64,000 nt of DNA from an uncultured Bacteriovoracaceae bacterium (lineage in GTDB: Bacteria; Bdellovibrionota; Bacteriovoracia; Bacteriovoracales; Bacteriovoracaceae), in the NCBI GenBank assembly GCA_937923325.1, contig CAKZUQ010000011.1, positions 1 to 64,000 on the forward strand, written 5' to 3'. Positions 9,890 through 16,560 of the stretch are shown in pieces. The notes below the pieces were generated by a model. The model saw only the letters and a list, made by a program, of their open reading frames with translations. It was not told the DNA's origin and did not search any database. The translations under genes and the position numbers were made by a program. Position 1 is the first letter of the stretch; every line of letters starts with the position of its first letter.

Positions 9890-11194
9890 ATGCTTGAAAA
9901 CTATAACATTTCCGATAAAGAAAATAGGTTTACACTTGTAGGTGTAAGTATAGTATTTCTTTGCGTTGTTTGGACATGTTTTGAAGCCCCACTTTCATTT
10001 GTCTTAAATAAACAACTAAAAGAGCACCATCTTTGGTGGGATGGTCTCTTTAGCTTAATATTTACGTTAGATATATATTTTAAAATAAAAAATAAATACA
10101 ATATGCCAACCTTAGAAATGAATGATGAGCTACCTCAATATCATAAATCAAAATGGTTTTGGATAGATATAGTAGCATCGATACCATATGACATAATTGC
10201 TTCTGTATTTGGACTTAATATTGTGAATAATACTATAATGGCCCTAAGACTACTTAGAGTTGCTCGAATAGTAAAAATTCGATCTATAATTAAGATTGCA
10301 AAGTTTTTACCAAGAAGTATAAAAATAATATTAACTCTAACAGCAATTGCTTTAGTTATACATTTACTTGCATGTGGTTGGATGATGATATCTCCAAGGT
10401 CAGACTTAGACCTCATTTCATTTTATAATGTTTCTTTGTACTGGGCCGTATCAACGCTTACAACAGTTGGTTACGGAGATATAACACCTGTAACAAATAT
10501 TGGTAGAGCATACACGATGATTGTAATGGTTATTGGAGCTGCTAGTTATGGTATTATCATTGGTAATTTCTCAAAAATGATTATGCTCGCAGATAAATAC
10601 AAAGAAGAGAAAAAAGAAAAATTAAACTCTCTAAATCAATTTATGAAATATTATAATATTCCTAGAGGTCTACAGAAACAAACACTAATGTTTTATAATC
10701 ACCTATTAACACAAAATATATCAAAAGAAGAGGAAATGATCGTAAAAGATCTTCCACAGGCCCTACAAAATGAATTAAATATTTATAAAAGAATCAAGAT
10801 ATTAAGAAATGTACATATTTTTAAAGACTGCTCAACTCCATGCTTAAAGATGATTGCAAATAAACTAGAGCAAACATTCCACTCTCCAAATGAATATATT
10901 ATTAAAAGAGGAGATGCAGGAGATGCTATGTTTATAATTGGTCATGGGGAATTTGAAGTATCAAATGGTGAAAAAATTTACGCAACTTTAAAAGATGGAC
11001 AGTTCTTTGGAGAGATGGCGCTACTTGAAGATACAATTAGATCAATGGATATAATAAGTAAGTCTTATTGTGATCTATACGGATTTAAAAAAGAGGATTT
11101 CAAGGCCGTAATTGAGAAGTATCCTAATCTTCAAGAGAAGTTTCAATCAAAATATAAAAGACGAAACGAAGATAGATCACTTAAGGTTGCATAA
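9890..11194 (+). CDS. Six-helix K+ channel with cyclic-nucleotide-binding domain
   Basis: Cation channel of the voltage-gated/CNG superfamily in the inner membrane. S1-S3 lie at about residues 15-110. A charged S4 (117-138, [16 protein letters not shown]) has Arg/Lys about every third residue, as in voltage sensors. The pore carries the potassium selectivity filter TTVGYGD (191-197). After S6 comes a C-linker (about 230-305), then a cyclic-nucleotide-binding domain (about 310-420). Its phosphate-binding cassette [13 protein letters not shown] (373-385) keeps the GE and Arg contacts. The architecture matches bacterial homologues of HCN/EAG channels such as SthK. It is the first gene after a divergent promoter region containing a 16-bp palindrome, with GGAG at 9871-9874. 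Confidence 0.92.
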
Positions 11195-11220: not shown

Positions 11221-11427
11221 ATGAATCCGAATTGCAATAGATGTAAACATTACTTTATAACATTTGATAAGAGTGCTTCCAAAGGGTGTAAAATATTTGG
11301 TATAAAATCAAATACCTTACCTTCAACTATTGTTAAATCAGCAAATGGAAGAGACTGTAATGGCTTTGAACTCAAAGATAGATTCAAAAATAAGGCTAAA
11401 GACCTGAATGATTCTAAGAATTGGTAA
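11221..11427 (+). CDS. Conserved small Cys-rich protein
   Basis: A 68-residue protein whose conserved-looking core is CNRCKHYFITFD, a Cys at 23 inside GCKIFG, LPS, and a Cys at 46 in GRDCNGF. The four cysteines (5, 8, 23, 46) could hold one zinc. Similar short proteins with CxxCxHY...GCxxFGxKS...C occur in many proteobacteria without an established function. It follows the channel gene by 26 bp and may share its transcript. Its end overlaps the convergent mnmA by 14 bp. Confidence 0.7.
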   Translation: MNPNCNRCKHYFITFDKSASKGCKIFGIKSNTLPSTIVKSANGRDCNGFELKDRFKNKAKDLNDSKNW

Positions 11428-12595
11428 CTTTTTGATCATATAAAGTCTCGCCTCGAGACTTTATAATAGCTCCACCTAAACACTCATTATCTTTATAAAG
11501 CACTACTGATTGCCTTATTGCAATTGCTCTTTGGGGCTTATCGAATTTTACAAAAAGCTCTCCATCAACTTTAGTCACTGTACAAGCTTGGTCTTGCTGT
11601 CTGTATCTAATTTTCGCAAAGCAGTTTAGCGGAAAATCGGGTTCAGTATTAACCCAAGAAATTTCTGTTGCAACAAGTTCACTTGAAAATAAAGAGGGGT
11701 GTGCGTCTCCTTCGACAACATAGACAGTATTTGTAGTAATATCTTTACTACAAACAAACCAAGGACCACCAGGTCCACCTAGTCCAAGTCCCTTTCTTTG
11801 ACCAATCGTGTAAAAACATGCTCCATCATGTGGGCCTAAAACTTTATTTGTTTCAAGGTTTACGAAATCCCCCTTTTGGCCCTTAACGTAAGTTGAAAGA
11901 AAATTCTTAAAATTTCTTTCGCCAATAAAGCAAATTCCCGTGGAGTCTTTCTTGTTATGAGTAATTAAATCAAAGTCTTTAGCAATTTGCCTAACGACCT
12001 TCTTTTCAATACTACCTATTGGAAAAAGAACATTCTTAAGAACTTCCTCTTGAATAGTGTATAAGAAGTAAGTTTGATCTTTATTTGAATCACGACCTTT
12101 TAAAAGCTGATTATCAGAAGATTTCTGACAATAGTGACCAGTTGCAAGAAAGTTAGCACCTAAAGACATGGCCTTATCATAAAAGACTTTAAATTTAATC
12201 TCTCTATTGCATAATATATCAGGATTAGGAGTATAGCCTAGTTCGTATTCTTTCACGAAATGCTTAAATACATTTTCCTCATAATCTCTCACAAAGTTTA
12301 CGCTATAATATGGAATATCAAGTTTTTCACAAACGCTTATTACATCAGCGTAGTCTTTTTCTGAAGAACAAACTCCATTCTCATCTTTTTCTTCCCAGTT
12401 CTTCATAAACATTCCGATAACATTGTACCCTTGAAGTTTTAAAACTGCTGCACATGAAGAAGAGTCAACTCCCCCACTCATGCCGAGAATAACTTTTTTT
12501 CTACGATTAAACTCAAATTCTTCATTAGTTAATGAGATACCGTACTTAGTTAGAGTTTCTTTTGATTCTTGAAAATTCATAAACGCGTTATACAT
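11414..12595 (-). CDS. mnmA: tRNA-specific 2-thiouridylase MnmA
   Basis: Adenylates and thiolates U34 of Lys, Glu and Gln tRNAs, taking sulphur from the Tus/IscS relay. On the longest reading from TTG 12610 (398 residues) the PP-loop SGGVDSS is at 45-51, the first catalytic Cys in NPDILCNREIKF is Cys134, TGHY follows near 157, and the second catalytic Cys in STGICFIG is Cys227. The C-terminal beta-barrel RNA-binding part is complete. The start is uncertain: TTG 12610, ATG 12595 and ATG 12580 are all possible, none with a good ribosome site, and about 30 extra residues precede the family core. It lies directly downstream of a degenerate MnmA paralogue, with only a short gap, so they are probably co-transcribed. 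Confidence 0.95.
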   Translation of the reverse strand: MYNAFMNFQESKETLTKYGISLTNEEFEFNRRKKVILGMSGGVDSSSCAAVLKLQGYNVIGMFMKNWEEKDENGVCSSEKDYADVISVCEKLDIPYYSVNFVRDYEENVFKHFVKEYELGYTPNPDILCNREIKFKVFYDKAMSLGANFLATGHYCQKSSDNQLLKGRDSNKDQTYFLYTIQEEVLKNVLFPIGSIEKKVVRQIAKDFDLITHNKKDSTGICFIGERNFKNFLSTYVKGQKGDFVNLETNKVLGPHDGACFYTIGQRKGLGLGGPGGPWFVCSKDITTNTVYVVEGDAHPSLFSSELVATEISWVNTEPDFPLNCFAKIRYRQQDQACTVTKVDGELFVKFDKPQRAIAIRQSVVLYKDNECLGGAIIKSRGETLYDQKVTNS

Positions 12596-12624
12596 GAAGT
12601 AAAATGACAAGTAAATTGTAAAGC

Positions 12625-13614
12625 TTACCTATTGGGCTTAAAGACTCTTCCTGACCCTAGTAGCCTAGAATTTCGATGATCTGAATCGTATATATTAACA
12701 ATTTGACCAACATACAGGCTAAGATCAAGATCTTCTATAAATTCGATACGAAAACGATTCAATGTATAAAAAGTTAATAAAACTGAATGGTATTCTACTG
12801 AGTTGGAAACTCGAACAAATAAATTACGTGAAAGAGGCTCAGGTTTTAATGTAGATAGGGAGCATTCATAAATTTTAGTCTCAATATATTTTAAGCTATC
12901 TCCCTCAAGAATAAAGGTTGTATCTACATCTTGCGAGAAGTTACTAAGTTCAAACTCAGTATTCTTGAATACCTCACTATTAAATTCAATTCGCTTGATC
13001 AAAGATTCAGGAACAAAATCAGAAAAACTTAAGAAATTTAAATCTTTAGATTCTATATTTGAAACACGATAATCTTTAACAAGCTTCTCTCTTTCCCTTA
13101 AGGCTAAATCTCCAAGAGGGGAAATAAGTCCGTCCAATTTTGCAAGATTCATATCTGAAAATAGGTACGATTGATCTAAACTTGAGTCTGAATGCATCAA
13201 AATTTGAACAGAAGAAGTATGCTTTAAAAGTTTTACATAATGTCCTGTTGCTATACTTTCAAAGTCTTCACTTAAACGATTAATTAGAAATTTTGAAATT
13301 AACTGACAATAGTTGACATAAGTAAACGAAATTCTTGAAGATATAACACTATCCAATACTTCATCGATAAAATAATTTGTAACATCAACAACTGTTAGAT
13401 CTATCGCAATCTCATTTGCCTTTGACAAAACAAGGTCTTTTTCACGAGTAAATTTTGAAATAATACTTGAGGGAATATTAAATATCTTCTCAGGGTTAAT
13501 GTAGTAATAAACTCCAGTAACGCTATAACCTTGCTTAGATAAAAGGATTCCAGTAAGTTGTGAGTCACGGTCTCCATTAAAGCCAAGTACTATATATTTT
13601 TTTTTTATTTCCAT
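12625..13614 (-). CDS. Divergent MnmA-like protein, probably not an active thiouridylase
   Basis: It can be aligned by eye with MnmA over its first 200 residues: strand-loop IVLGFNGDRDSQLTG, GYSVTGVY, ATGHYVKL (122-129), SLDQSYLF (145-152), and ISPLGDL corresponding to FPIGSIE. The PP-loop SGGVDSS is replaced by NGDRDSQ (13-19), losing the Gly-Gly-Val and final Ser-Ser pattern needed for ATP. The first catalytic Cys position seems kept (Cys103 in YVNYCQL), but the second is Asn193 in SKDLNFL. The C-terminal third resembles the MnmA barrel only in outline (LFVRVSNS, then YVGQIVNIYDSD). At 329 residues it is only slightly shorter than MnmA. It sits immediately upstream of true mnmA, suggesting duplication and loss of catalysis, perhaps as a partner subunit or regulator. 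Confidence 0.72.
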   Translation of the reverse strand: MEIKKKYIVLGFNGDRDSQLTGILLSKQGYSVTGVYYYINPEKIFNIPSSIISKFTREKDLVLSKANEIAIDLTVVDVTNYFIDEVLDSVISSRISFTYVNYCQLISKFLINRLSEDFESIATGHYVKLLKHTSSVQILMHSDSSLDQSYLFSDMNLAKLDGLISPLGDLALREREKLVKDYRVSNIESKDLNFLSFSDFVPESLIKRIEFNSEVFKNTEFELSNFSQDVDTTFILEGDSLKYIETKIYECSLSTLKPEPLSRNLFVRVSNSVEYHSVLLTFYTLNRFRIEFIEDLDLSLYVGQIVNIYDSDHRNSRLLGSGRVFKPNR

Positions 13615-13676: not shown

Positions 13677-14294
13677 ATGGAAAATAAAAATATTTACATT
13701 ATTCAAAATCATAACAAAGTAAACTTGGTATCGATCTATAGTAGTTTTATAAAGTCTAAATTAAGTACAAGCGAAAAATTTCAAATTGTATCCGTAAAAG
13801 ATAAATTCCAAAGAAAAATAACACTAAAAGAAATTTTAGAATTTGATACAACTGCTCAAAGCTTAACTGTAGATACTAAGAAATATATATCTAAAATGAT
13901 ATCTAAACATAATAACGAGTTCGTTCTAGAGTTGTATAAAGAAATACCAGACCTAGGATCTTTTTTTGATGAAATTTCAAAAGAACAAAAAGTTATCTTT
14001 TCATTTTTAAGAAGTATCATTAAAGATTCCAAGACAATCCTAGTGGAAAATATGGATGGTATCATAAGAAAAGATTCTTTTAAAACAATAAAGAAATCAA
14101 TAAACCAAATGGCAAAAGAGAGTAAATATAATTTCATAATTGAGACGAATACACCTGAGTTTTGGAGTGATATCTGTAGTCACTACGTAAGGGTGCAAGA
14201 AACAAGCGTGGAGTTCACTAAAAATAAACTTGATATGAATGAGCTAGAAGATAGTATAAATAAAGATCAGACTGGCCTTCAAATAGCGCTATAG
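13677..14294 (+). CDS. Protein of unknown function, possible ABC-ATPase relic
   Basis: A 205-residue Lys/Ser-rich soluble protein. No clear family is recognised. The stretch at about 99-160 has the order of features in the second half of an ABC ATPase: SKEQKVIFSFLRSIIKDSK in the place of the signature helix, TILVEN in the place of Walker B (LLLDEP), and IIETNTPE in the place of the H-loop. A Walker A P-loop is absent from the N-terminus. The resemblance is weak and could be chance. The gene is divergent from the MnmA paralogue and ends 5 bp before the convergent gene at 14300. Confidence 0.55.
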   Translation: MENKNIYIIQNHNKVNLVSIYSSFIKSKLSTSEKFQIVSVKDKFQRKITLKEILEFDTTAQSLTVDTKKYISKMISKHNNEFVLELYKEIPDLGSFFDEISKEQKVIFSFLRSIIKDSKTILVENMDGIIRKDSFKTIKKSINQMAKESKYNFIIETNTPEFWSDICSHYVRVQETSVEFTKNKLDMNELEDSINKDQTGLQIAL

Positions 14295-14299
14295 TTAAA

Positions 14300-15271
14300 T
14301 TAAAGATACCTTACAGAGCAATTTACTTTGAAGGATTTATTGATAAATCTGTTCATGGCCTTAATTCTGATAATCAAACAAATATTTTTGAATTTTATTT
14401 CAAAGTATGAAGTAGAGTCAGAGTTTATTATTTCGAAGTCATTTTCAAGAATACCTTTAGAACTAAAAACTTGATATTCCCCTTGGTCATAATTATCTCT
14501 ATGGTAACAAGTGGCCTGTATCACTGAGCTTTTACTAAATCCTATTAAAGAAAATATCGATTTTATAAAATTTTTACTGTTAGATAACTCAACTACAGCA
14601 TCGTAAAACAATTTTGATGATTTATGTAAAAACTTAAGATATTCTTCACGACTACTACCTGTAAGCTCGCCAGGTAAACCTGGTAAACCTCTCATGCACC
14701 ATTCATTAAAATTTCTATCCCACTCTAAACCATTCTCTTCATGGATAGCAAAGCTAAATTCATCAAATATTTTATCAAACTCTTTACTAACATTACTCTG
14801 TAAACTATCAGCATCATAAAAGTACTTAGATAAAAAGCTCTTAACACCAGCACTTTTAGTATTCGTTGCTGCTTTATGCTTATTTAGCTTAATACTTACT
14901 GGATAGGTTTGATCTAAAGAAACAATAAGAATATCTGCTTCTCCATAATCCCCTTCTGTATCAGAAGCAGCAGTCTTTCCAACGAGACGTATGTTAGAAA
15001 TACTAGTTAGATTTAGAGTTTTCAGTATTTCCTCACTAAGAGATTTTGCAAGTAGTGGTAACTTACTTAAAAGATCTGGATAAAAGCTACGAATAAAGCT
15101 TTCTTGTTGCTTTAACATCAAAAGGAATGATTTGGAAAGTTCACTTAAGAACTTAGACTCTAAGTCACTTTTCTTTGCTAATTGAACACAGACAAGAAAC
15201 TCAAATAGATTTCCTTTATATTCATTAAGCAAAGCTTCTTGTCGTGCAGAGAAAGACACTACTTTCTCCAA
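14300..15271 (-). CDS. Uncharacterised protein, possible PD-(D/E)XK-fold nuclease
   Basis: No family recognised with confidence. The N-terminus EYKGNLFEFLVCVQLA (17-32) resembles the first helix of many restriction-type nucleases, with Glu24 in place. Residues 108-128 read DYGEADILIV then YPVSIKLN, which fits a D-x(n)-SxK version of the PD-(D/E)XK centre with Asp113, Ser126 and Lys128. The expected acidic residue is replaced by Ser, so activity is not assured. There is no signal peptide. The start overlaps the 3' end of gsk by 13 bp, implying coupled expression with a nucleoside kinase. The methyltransferase is more than 10 kb away. Confidence 0.55.
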   Translation of the reverse strand: MEKVVSFSARQEALLNEYKGNLFEFLVCVQLAKKSDLESKFLSELSKSFLLMLKQQESFIRSFYPDLLSKLPLLAKSLSEEILKTLNLTSISNIRLVGKTAASDTEGDYGEADILIVSLDQTYPVSIKLNKHKAATNTKSAGVKSFLSKYFYDADSLQSNVSKEFDKIFDEFSFAIHEENGLEWDRNFNEWCMRGLPGLPGELTGSSREEYLKFLHKSSKLFYDAVVELSNSKNFIKSIFSLIGFSKSSVIQATCYHRDNYDQGEYQVFSSKGILENDFEIINSDSTSYFEIKFKNICLIIRIKAMNRFINKSFKVNCSVRYL

Positions 15272-16560
15272 TAAGCATCATCTAAGGAATCTTCTTTTTG
15301 AGGAAGGGCTCTAAAGAGTCGAGGTGAATTTTGACTAAGAACCTCAAAACTAACCCTATTTGCATACTTACTAATTTGAGAAATAGAAGAGTAAGTTAAG
15401 TAATCTTGAGAGTGTTTTGGAGAATTTGGAATAGTTTCTCTATGGTAAATATTTGCAGCAATATCATGAAGTAATGCTGAAAGTGCAGCATCTCCTGCAC
15501 CATTGGTATTTTTTATCATACTTGGTCCACCTTTAAATGGACTTATATGTGTGTAGATCTTTATAGGATTATTACACTTAGTTCTTTTCATACTTCTACT
15601 GTATTCAAATTCATTGTAATTAACTATAGACTTAGAAACTAAAGGTGAATTAGTCATACGCTTAAAGTCGTCTTCGACATGACCACCAAGGTATAGACCC
15701 TTTTTACCGACAGTCAAAAGAACTAAATCTGTTGAATCTAAGAGTTCCTCTATAATTAACAATGGATCATTTTGTCCAGTTAGTTCTAATGCTTCATCTT
15801 GATTCATAGCAAGAACAGAAACATATTTTTTAATAAAGCTATAAAAGAAATCCCTTTTTTCTTTAACCAAGTCACTTGTCCCGAGTGAAAAGACTACAGG
15901 TATCTCATTTGCCAAGGCAATCTCACAAGACTTAATAGTCGAGTTATAAATTGGATCTTCTTCACTTCTTAAAGTATATGCAGATACTAAAACAGCAGAT
16001 GACTTAGATACTATTTCACTTGGTATGCTTTCACTTTTAAGGTCATTCATGCACCCCTTACTAATTGCAAAGGTTCTTTCAAGATCAGGAGTGATAAAAC
16101 ACAAAGCTCTTCCCATAGGCTTTTCGGAGGGTTGAAGATAAGTAAGATCCACAATTCCATTTGTCTTAGAAAGGTATTTAAAGGCATAATCGCCTACTTC
16201 AATTTGTTTTTTTATAGCTCCTAACGCATAGGAAGGTGTGTCACTAAGAATGGAAAAGTTATGAAGCGTGTTTCCAATTGCTCCCCCGGGATACTCTCCA
16301 GTAACCTTATTTAAATCTTTGAACTTATAGTAAATCGAATCAGCTAAGTTGTCTGAAATTAGAAAAGATTGTCCCTTTGAAAAGTTATGTTCAGCTAAGA
16401 ATTGATCATCTACCTCAATTTCAATATCGACTAACAACTGATCAATACCAACGATATAAGGCATCTCAACAGTTTTGCCATTATTTGAATCAACCGATGG
16501 CTTACTTGTTTCTGTAACAGGAAAGTAGTGTTTTGTATCTCTTCTACCAGGGAACTTCAT
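15259..16560 (-). CDS. gsk: Inosine-guanosine kinase
   Basis: PfkB/ribokinase-superfamily nucleoside kinase that phosphorylates guanosine and inosine to GMP and IMP in purine salvage. At 433 residues it is almost the same length as E. coli Gsk (434). It shares with it MKFPGRRDTKHYFPV at the start, VVGIDQ-like IVGIDQLLVDIE, GGAIGNTLHN, AMNQDEALELTGQNDPLL, the PfkB anion-hole signature NTNGAGDAALSALLHDI and a closing EDSLDDAYW. The Asp of NGAGD is the expected catalytic base. A minus-strand promoter candidate lies just upstream (16641-16668). It heads a two-gene unit with the 14300-15271 gene. Confidence 0.95.
   Translation of the reverse strand: MKFPGRRDTKHYFPVTETSKPSVDSNNGKTVEMPYIVGIDQLLVDIEIEVDDQFLAEHNFSKGQSFLISDNLADSIYYKFKDLNKVTGEYPGGAIGNTLHNFSILSDTPSYALGAIKKQIEVGDYAFKYLSKTNGIVDLTYLQPSEKPMGRALCFITPDLERTFAISKGCMNDLKSESIPSEIVSKSSAVLVSAYTLRSEEDPIYNSTIKSCEIALANEIPVVFSLGTSDLVKEKRDFFYSFIKKYVSVLAMNQDEALELTGQNDPLLIIEELLDSTDLVLLTVGKKGLYLGGHVEDDFKRMTNSPLVSKSIVNYNEFEYSRSMKRTKCNNPIKIYTHISPFKGGPSMIKNTNGAGDAALSALLHDIAANIYHRETIPNSPKHSQDYLTYSSISQISKYANRVSFEVLSQNSPRLFRALPQKEDSLDDAYWRK

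Follow-up and report, generated by a model that had tools for sequence, protein, structure and literature searches.

Why should a bacterium keep, directly upstream of an intact gene for the tRNA thiolase MnmA, a second gene whose product follows MnmA motif by motif and has a broken active site? The question arises in the window, by which we mean the whole 64,000-nucleotide stretch analyzed here (contig CAKZUQ010000011.1, positions 1 to 64,000, from an uncultured Bacteriovoracaceae bacterium, a relative of predatory bacteria). An earlier note on this DNA proposed that a tandem duplication had produced a pseudoenzyme kept beside the enzyme, perhaps as a partner of MnmA or as a scavenger of persulphide.

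The locus

The gene is a 329-codon open reading frame at 12625..13614 on the minus strand, assigned by its reading frame, a Pfam match and profile alignment to an MnmA-like pseudoenzyme of what is termed below the second family; its product is designated P0001. Directly downstream on the same strand lies canonical mnmA (11414..12595, minus strand), 393 amino acids (aa) long in its database copy, P0140. That this neighbor is the true enzyme, as the earlier note held, is clear from its intact SGGVDSS loop, both catalytic cysteines and a MnmA equivalog score of 439.2 bits against a cut-off of 284; it also carries the D-type motif NPDILCN. Its longest frame in the window opens with a TTG at 12610, and P0140 starts at 12595. 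If the latter start is the right one, the two genes are separated by a gap of 29 nt (12596..12624, minus strand), in which no terminator-like site is listed upstream of mnmA. In codon usage the P0001 gene resembles mnmA (0.172 and 0.171), against a background in which the 39 window frames of at least 250 aa span 0.116 to 0.335 and 500 random synonymous versions average −0.26.

A divergent 205-aa frame (13677..14294, plus strand) begins 62 nt from the start of the second-family gene and matches nothing in Pfam or NCBIfam at E values up to 1. The same holds for a 323-aa frame at 14300..15271 (minus strand), whose listed start overlaps the end of an inosine/guanosine kinase gene (15259..16560; 567.4 bits). 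On the other side, convergent with mnmA, an ion channel with a cyclic-nucleotide-binding domain is encoded at 9890..11194 (plus strand).

A full-length homologue of MnmA

Judged by its alignments, P0001 is an MnmA homologue over its full length, far beyond chance. The HUP domain PF03054 is the sole Pfam domain matched (57.7 bits, E 1.7e-15, cut-off 20.6). The MnmA-like order of motifs on which the earlier note had relied can be located in full, with TGHY at residues 123–126, SLDQSYLF at 145–152 and PLGDL at 166–170, and HMM–HMM comparison confirms the kinship: a profile of P0001 and its relative P0002 aligns with 34 canonical MnmA proteins over residues 4–327 (hhalign, E 2.4e-19, score 138.8). 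Against 40 second-family members the same profile reaches E 9.1e-35 and a score of 239.5. The protein consists of a degenerate HUP domain (Pfam match at residues 8–191), a shortened middle part and a C-terminal part that aligns with the C-terminal barrel of MnmA; there is no C-terminal tail. Its scores against the MnmA equivalog models are far short of the cut-offs (67.6 versus 284 bits; 59.2 versus 236.95 bits).

An older, second MnmA-like family

A profile built from P0001, P0002 and P0006 was used to search for the family; 7,994 candidates were scored, and the best 120 of 3,558 matches were used. The second family is defined here as the 61 of these 120 that lack the TPNP signature of MnmA, one fragment being excluded. 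It comprises P0001, P0002 and 59 others (P0006, most of P0023–P0080, and more); the fragments P0098 (253 aa) and P0083 (228 aa) were left out of motif counts and trees. Database entries that name these proteins call them hypothetical or tRNA-specific 2-thiouridylase. Nine of the 61 listed rows carry an organism name (Bacteriovoracales, Bacteriovoracaceae twice, Peredibacter, Bacteriovorax three times and Oligoflexia twice), and all nine belong to the Bdellovibrionota. All 40 members scanned match the NCBI MnmA models at E values up to 1e-3, the best at 5.1e-73, and even this best match would score under the 284-bit cut-off. The Pfam middle and C-terminal domains are matched by 10 and 11 of the 40, respectively.

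Two indels mark the family. All 59 other second-family members show a spacing of 5 from the second Cys of the CxxC motif to the Phe of IKF (C129–F135), and so do P0001 and P0002, where for P0001 it is read from an alignment without an anchor residue at that place; in canonical MnmA proteins the spacing is 6 (196 of 196). The C-terminal hairpin has 11–12 residues in all 59 and 11 in P0001 and P0002, against 7–8 in 191 of 196 canonical proteins and 11 in the other five. Even second-family members with an intact loop have lost residues that are invariant in MnmA: of the 59, one keeps K172 (canonical sequences: 37 of 37 in one set, 196 of 196 in another), two keep R267 and none keeps G269. A C-terminal Phe ends 51 of the 59 members and only 8 of 120 listed canonical proteins, and Asp and Glu make up on average 32% of positions −25 to −3 in the family versus 13% over the whole protein. 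The tail is common and not universal; in P0001 and P0002 the protein stops at the barrel. An acid-rich tail with a terminal Phe is reminiscent of the SSB tail, and in the second family it looks like a possible docking motif.

In a quick tree of 98 hand-picked rows, a single branch (SH-aLRT 100) divides the 61 second-family rows from the 37 canonical ones. A careful tree of 42 rows (26 and 16), likewise picked by hand, groups P0001 and P0002 with 11 second-family rows at 98/98. Their position within the family is looser: in the quick tree, placement outside all other second-family rows has a p-AU of 0.54, and joining them to a clade of 14 rows, most of which have TGRxDS loops, improved on the unconstrained tree by 9.38 log units (p-AU 0.729), which shows that the unconstrained quick search had missed the optimum. 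The branch leading to the pair is very long, at 2.34 and 3.07 changes per column in the 98-row and 42-row trees, and is open to long-branch artefacts. Taken together, the indels, the trees and the profile comparison support the view that P0001 belongs, in strongly degenerate form, to a second and older MnmA-like family that occurs in Bacteriovoracales and elsewhere in the Bdellovibrionota.

Clustered conservation in the window lineage

Only one close relative of P0001, P0002, appears among the matches listed in a single-sequence protein search, a kind of search that may overlook fast-evolving second-family members. At 328 aa it is nearly as long as P0001, and the two are identical in 165 of 329 columns (50% identity). 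These identities are not evenly spread. The longest identical run is 17 columns, a length reached in 14 of 20,000 shuffles, which marks the conservation as clustered; identities are densest in residues 1–30, around the former PP-loop, and in residues 151–180. Both NGDRDSQL and PLGDLALREREKLVKDY are identical between the two proteins. Such clustering would hardly be expected of a merely drifting protein.

A dismantled active site

The SGGxDS pattern of the PP-loop is absent from P0001 and P0002, both of which read NGDRDS. The degenerate loop NGDRDSQL, the same in both, occupies residues 13–20 of P0001 (13555..13578, minus strand), and its first seven residues face SGGVDSS of the neighbor, so the altered ATP loop described in the earlier note is real. 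Variants of Asp99, Cys102 and Cys199 are reported to be inactive in E. coli (PMC11784392). The earlier note took Cys103 of P0001 for the first catalytic Cys. This reading holds in BLASTP with the neighbor and in two of three printed PDB alignments, which set it at Cys102; it does not hold in the profile and MAFFT alignments, where Cys103 falls at the Asp99 position (the first Cys of the CxxC in relatives) and Ile106 at Cys102. P0002 has Ala103. Opposite the second catalytic Cys (Cys199), the profile–profile alignments place Asn193, in agreement with the earlier note, while pairwise alignment gives Ser196 and MAFFT a gap; it is never a Cys, and P0002 has Glu193 and Asp196 in this area. In all, P0001 has just two cysteines, Cys103 and Cys251.

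With the PP-loop and the second Cys gone, the first Cys doubtful and missing from P0002, and the middle part shortened, P0001 should not run the known MnmA reaction. Because the position of Cys103 shifts between alignments and P0002 has Ala there, a conserved persulphide or sulphur role for this residue is also unlikely, and the scavenging function suggested in the earlier note is not supported.

The rest of the family has gone part of the way. The [ST]GGxDS loop is changed in 44 of the 61 listed rows, with Arg in place of the second Gly in 19 and the milder TGGxES in 10. The loop and both cysteines are intact in 17 rows; the loop is changed and the Cys kept at all three positions in 29 (for example P0029, P0030, P0033 and P0054); another 15 combine a changed loop with the loss of one or more Cys; an intact loop with a lost Cys occurs in none. 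None of the three Cys is present in 13 of the 61. Since changed loops with cysteines kept are common and the reverse combination does not occur, the counts suggest that in the other members the ATP step was the first to go. On the quick tree, at least 7 state changes are needed for the loop and 3 for the Cys, many branches being weak. One set combines TGGxES with none of the three Cys (P0058, P0059, P0061–P0063, P0065–P0067, P0070 and P0084), and three of its members are named Bacteriovorax.

Signs of recurrent linkage to mnmA

If the second family is tied to MnmA, its genes might be expected to keep company with mnmA elsewhere. Canonical proteins were collected with the residues encoded at 11414–12502 of the window as query, the best 120 of 8,000 matches being used. 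As a proxy for linkage, we took longest contigs of exactly equal size for a second-family and a canonical protein. Hand-copied sizes were compared for 61 rows of the second family, with P0098 included and P0078 omitted for want of a contig size, and for 154 canonical rows (the 120 listed and 34 hand-picked). Seven pairs emerged, the window's own and six more: P0023/P0105, P0029/P0228, P0030/P0220, P0033/P0161, P0035/P0148 and P0046/P0193. Three unequal pairs lay within 5 bases of each other, from which about 0.3 equal pairs would be expected by chance. In two cases the shared size is only 5,340 and 6,623 bases, and if the contigs of each pair are the same, the two genes there have to lie close together. 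These equal sizes suggest that linkage of the second family to canonical mnmA recurs. Together with the altered loop common to P0001 and P0002 and the clustered conservation, this upholds the core of the earlier note, a pseudoenzyme kept beside mnmA.

All six canonical partners outside the window have intact MnmA motifs. Five of the six are D-type (NPDILCN), as in the window, and each of these five is paired with a changed second-family loop; the sixth pair joins a C-type partner to an intact second-family loop, a sample too small for a rule. The nearest organism-named relative of the window's mnmA among the matches listed is P0145, from a Bacteriovoracaceae MAG (77% identity), in keeping with the Bacteriovoracales origin assumed by the earlier note. 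It is one of the six canonical proteins nearest the window's (P0141–P0146, 73–84% identical), none of which has an equal-size contig among the listed second-family members. The earlier note held that absence from close relatives would tell against a retained gene, and for these six that objection may still apply.

Wider searches brought in other lineages. A scan of genome contigs returned two loci, both from Caldimicrobium, and PF03054 is present in both genomes. P0054 searched against 99 genomes near Caldimicrobium found a match in 59 at E values up to 1e-20, and in each of the five loci read the loop and Cys motifs were canonical. P0140 searched against 39 relatives of genome G099, a set of no Bdellovibrionota and many overlaps with the Caldimicrobium set, gave 0 of 39 at E values up to 1e-80. 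No relative was confirmed in viral contigs.

What the degenerate protein may do

The explanation that we consider best, at a probability of roughly 0.45 and by analogy with Ctu2/Ncs2, is that P0001 is a degenerate second-family member acting as a noncatalytic companion of MnmA. The protein would retain both its HUP fold and its C-terminal barrel, would be expressed together with mnmA, and would bind MnmA, tRNA or both, positioning or stabilizing the substrate as has been proposed for Ctu2/Ncs2 with Ctu1/Ncs6. Full-length homology, the shared indels, the careful tree, clustered conservation, codon usage and linkage all speak for this; the missing tail, the very long branch, the undecided quick tree and the lack of a listed partner for the six nearest canonical MnmA proteins speak against it.

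Its main rivals are gene decay and a family task unrelated to MnmA. Under decay, the second family would have lost its purpose in the window's lineage, and the gene would be drifting toward loss, its frame open by chance or through weak residual constraint. The loss of tail, loop and cysteines, the truncation relative to other members, the very long P0001/P0002 branch and the missing equal-size contig pairs for the six nearest MnmA proteins, among the matches listed, all fit such a course. However, P0002 has the same length and the same altered loop at half identity, with conservation in clusters, the codon usage is still host-like, and a frame free of constraint could scarcely be expected to remain open across so much divergence; we regard decay as unlikely. 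Similarly improbable is a task of the family's own, whether docking through the acid-rich, Phe-ending tail or work on some other RNA, with P0001 as a tail-less offshoot. The prevalence of that tail relative to canonical MnmA and the disappearance of K172, R267 and G269 even where the loop is intact are in its favor, but it sits poorly with the repeated linkage to mnmA and with P0001 itself, which adjoins mnmA yet has no tail.

A sulphur relay, in which the triad formed by the CxxC and a further Cys would hold a persulphide or an Fe–S cluster and pass sulphur on to MnmA, draws on the 29 members that keep three cysteines behind a changed ATP loop; with two cysteines in P0001, Ala103 in P0002 and none of the three in 13 rows, it is very improbable here and at most valid for other members. 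Least credible is the degenerate tandem duplicate of the neighboring mnmA that the earlier note envisaged, for which adjacency and the quick tree (where the duplication constraint costs 15.27 log units, p-AU 0.199) leave a little room, and against which stand 25% identity to the neighbor, the two indels in common with the second family and the careful tree, where constraining P0001 and P0002 with ten Bacteriovoracales-type MnmA proteins is 29.41 log units worse (p-AU 0.0019).

Within the open-licence literature, we found no earlier description of a second MnmA-like family or of an MnmA pseudoenzyme. Whether MnmA works through a persulphide or an Fe–S cluster is described as an open question (PMC11784392), and the second family offers natural active-site variants, with loop changed and Cys kept, on which it can be addressed.

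Comparison with known systems

Relative to MnmA/TrmU, the tRNA 2-thiouridine(34) synthase (PF03054, NF001138, TIGR00420), P0001 has the same order of parts and the TGHY, DQS and PLG motifs; unlike it, P0001 has a broken PP-loop and two indels, lacks the second catalytic Cys and is shortened in its middle part. With the second family of Bdellovibrionota it has in common both indels, the loss of K172, its position in the tree and linkage to canonical mnmA. The 59 other members are 374–469 aa long, 46 with the Cys triad and 51 ending in Phe, whereas P0001 has neither triad nor terminal Phe.

The closest functional parallel to a companion of MnmA is eukaryotic. There, U34 thiolation is carried out by the homologous proteins Ctu1 and Ctu2 (Ncs6 and Ncs2), of which the second has diverged and most likely serves to orient the tRNA; for the fission yeast pair, association is reported and a heterodimer has been modelled (PMC10067955). 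According to the same source, U34 thiolation is carried out by an MnmA-type enzyme in bacteria and by a complex of two homologues in eukaryotes (PMC10067955). P0001 has what a Ctu2-like protein would show, a diverged active site and coexistence with an intact MnmA homologue. If catalysis is frequently lost in the second family while its genes remain close to mnmA, bacteria too may have evolved a noncatalytic partner for this reaction. It is conceivable, if doubtful, that Bacteriovoracales have a two-protein U34 thiolase, MnmA plus an MnmA-derived noncatalytic subunit, in parallel to Ctu1/Ctu2 and Ncs6/Ncs2; the partner would have lost its ATP loop several times and, in the window copy, nearly the whole active site. 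Ctu2/Ncs2 belongs to another PP-loop subclass; in both cases, a diverged homologue of the U34 thiolase coexists with the catalytic one, as described for Ctu2/Ncs2 and Ctu1/Ncs6 (PMC10067955) and as seen here for P0001 and MnmA.
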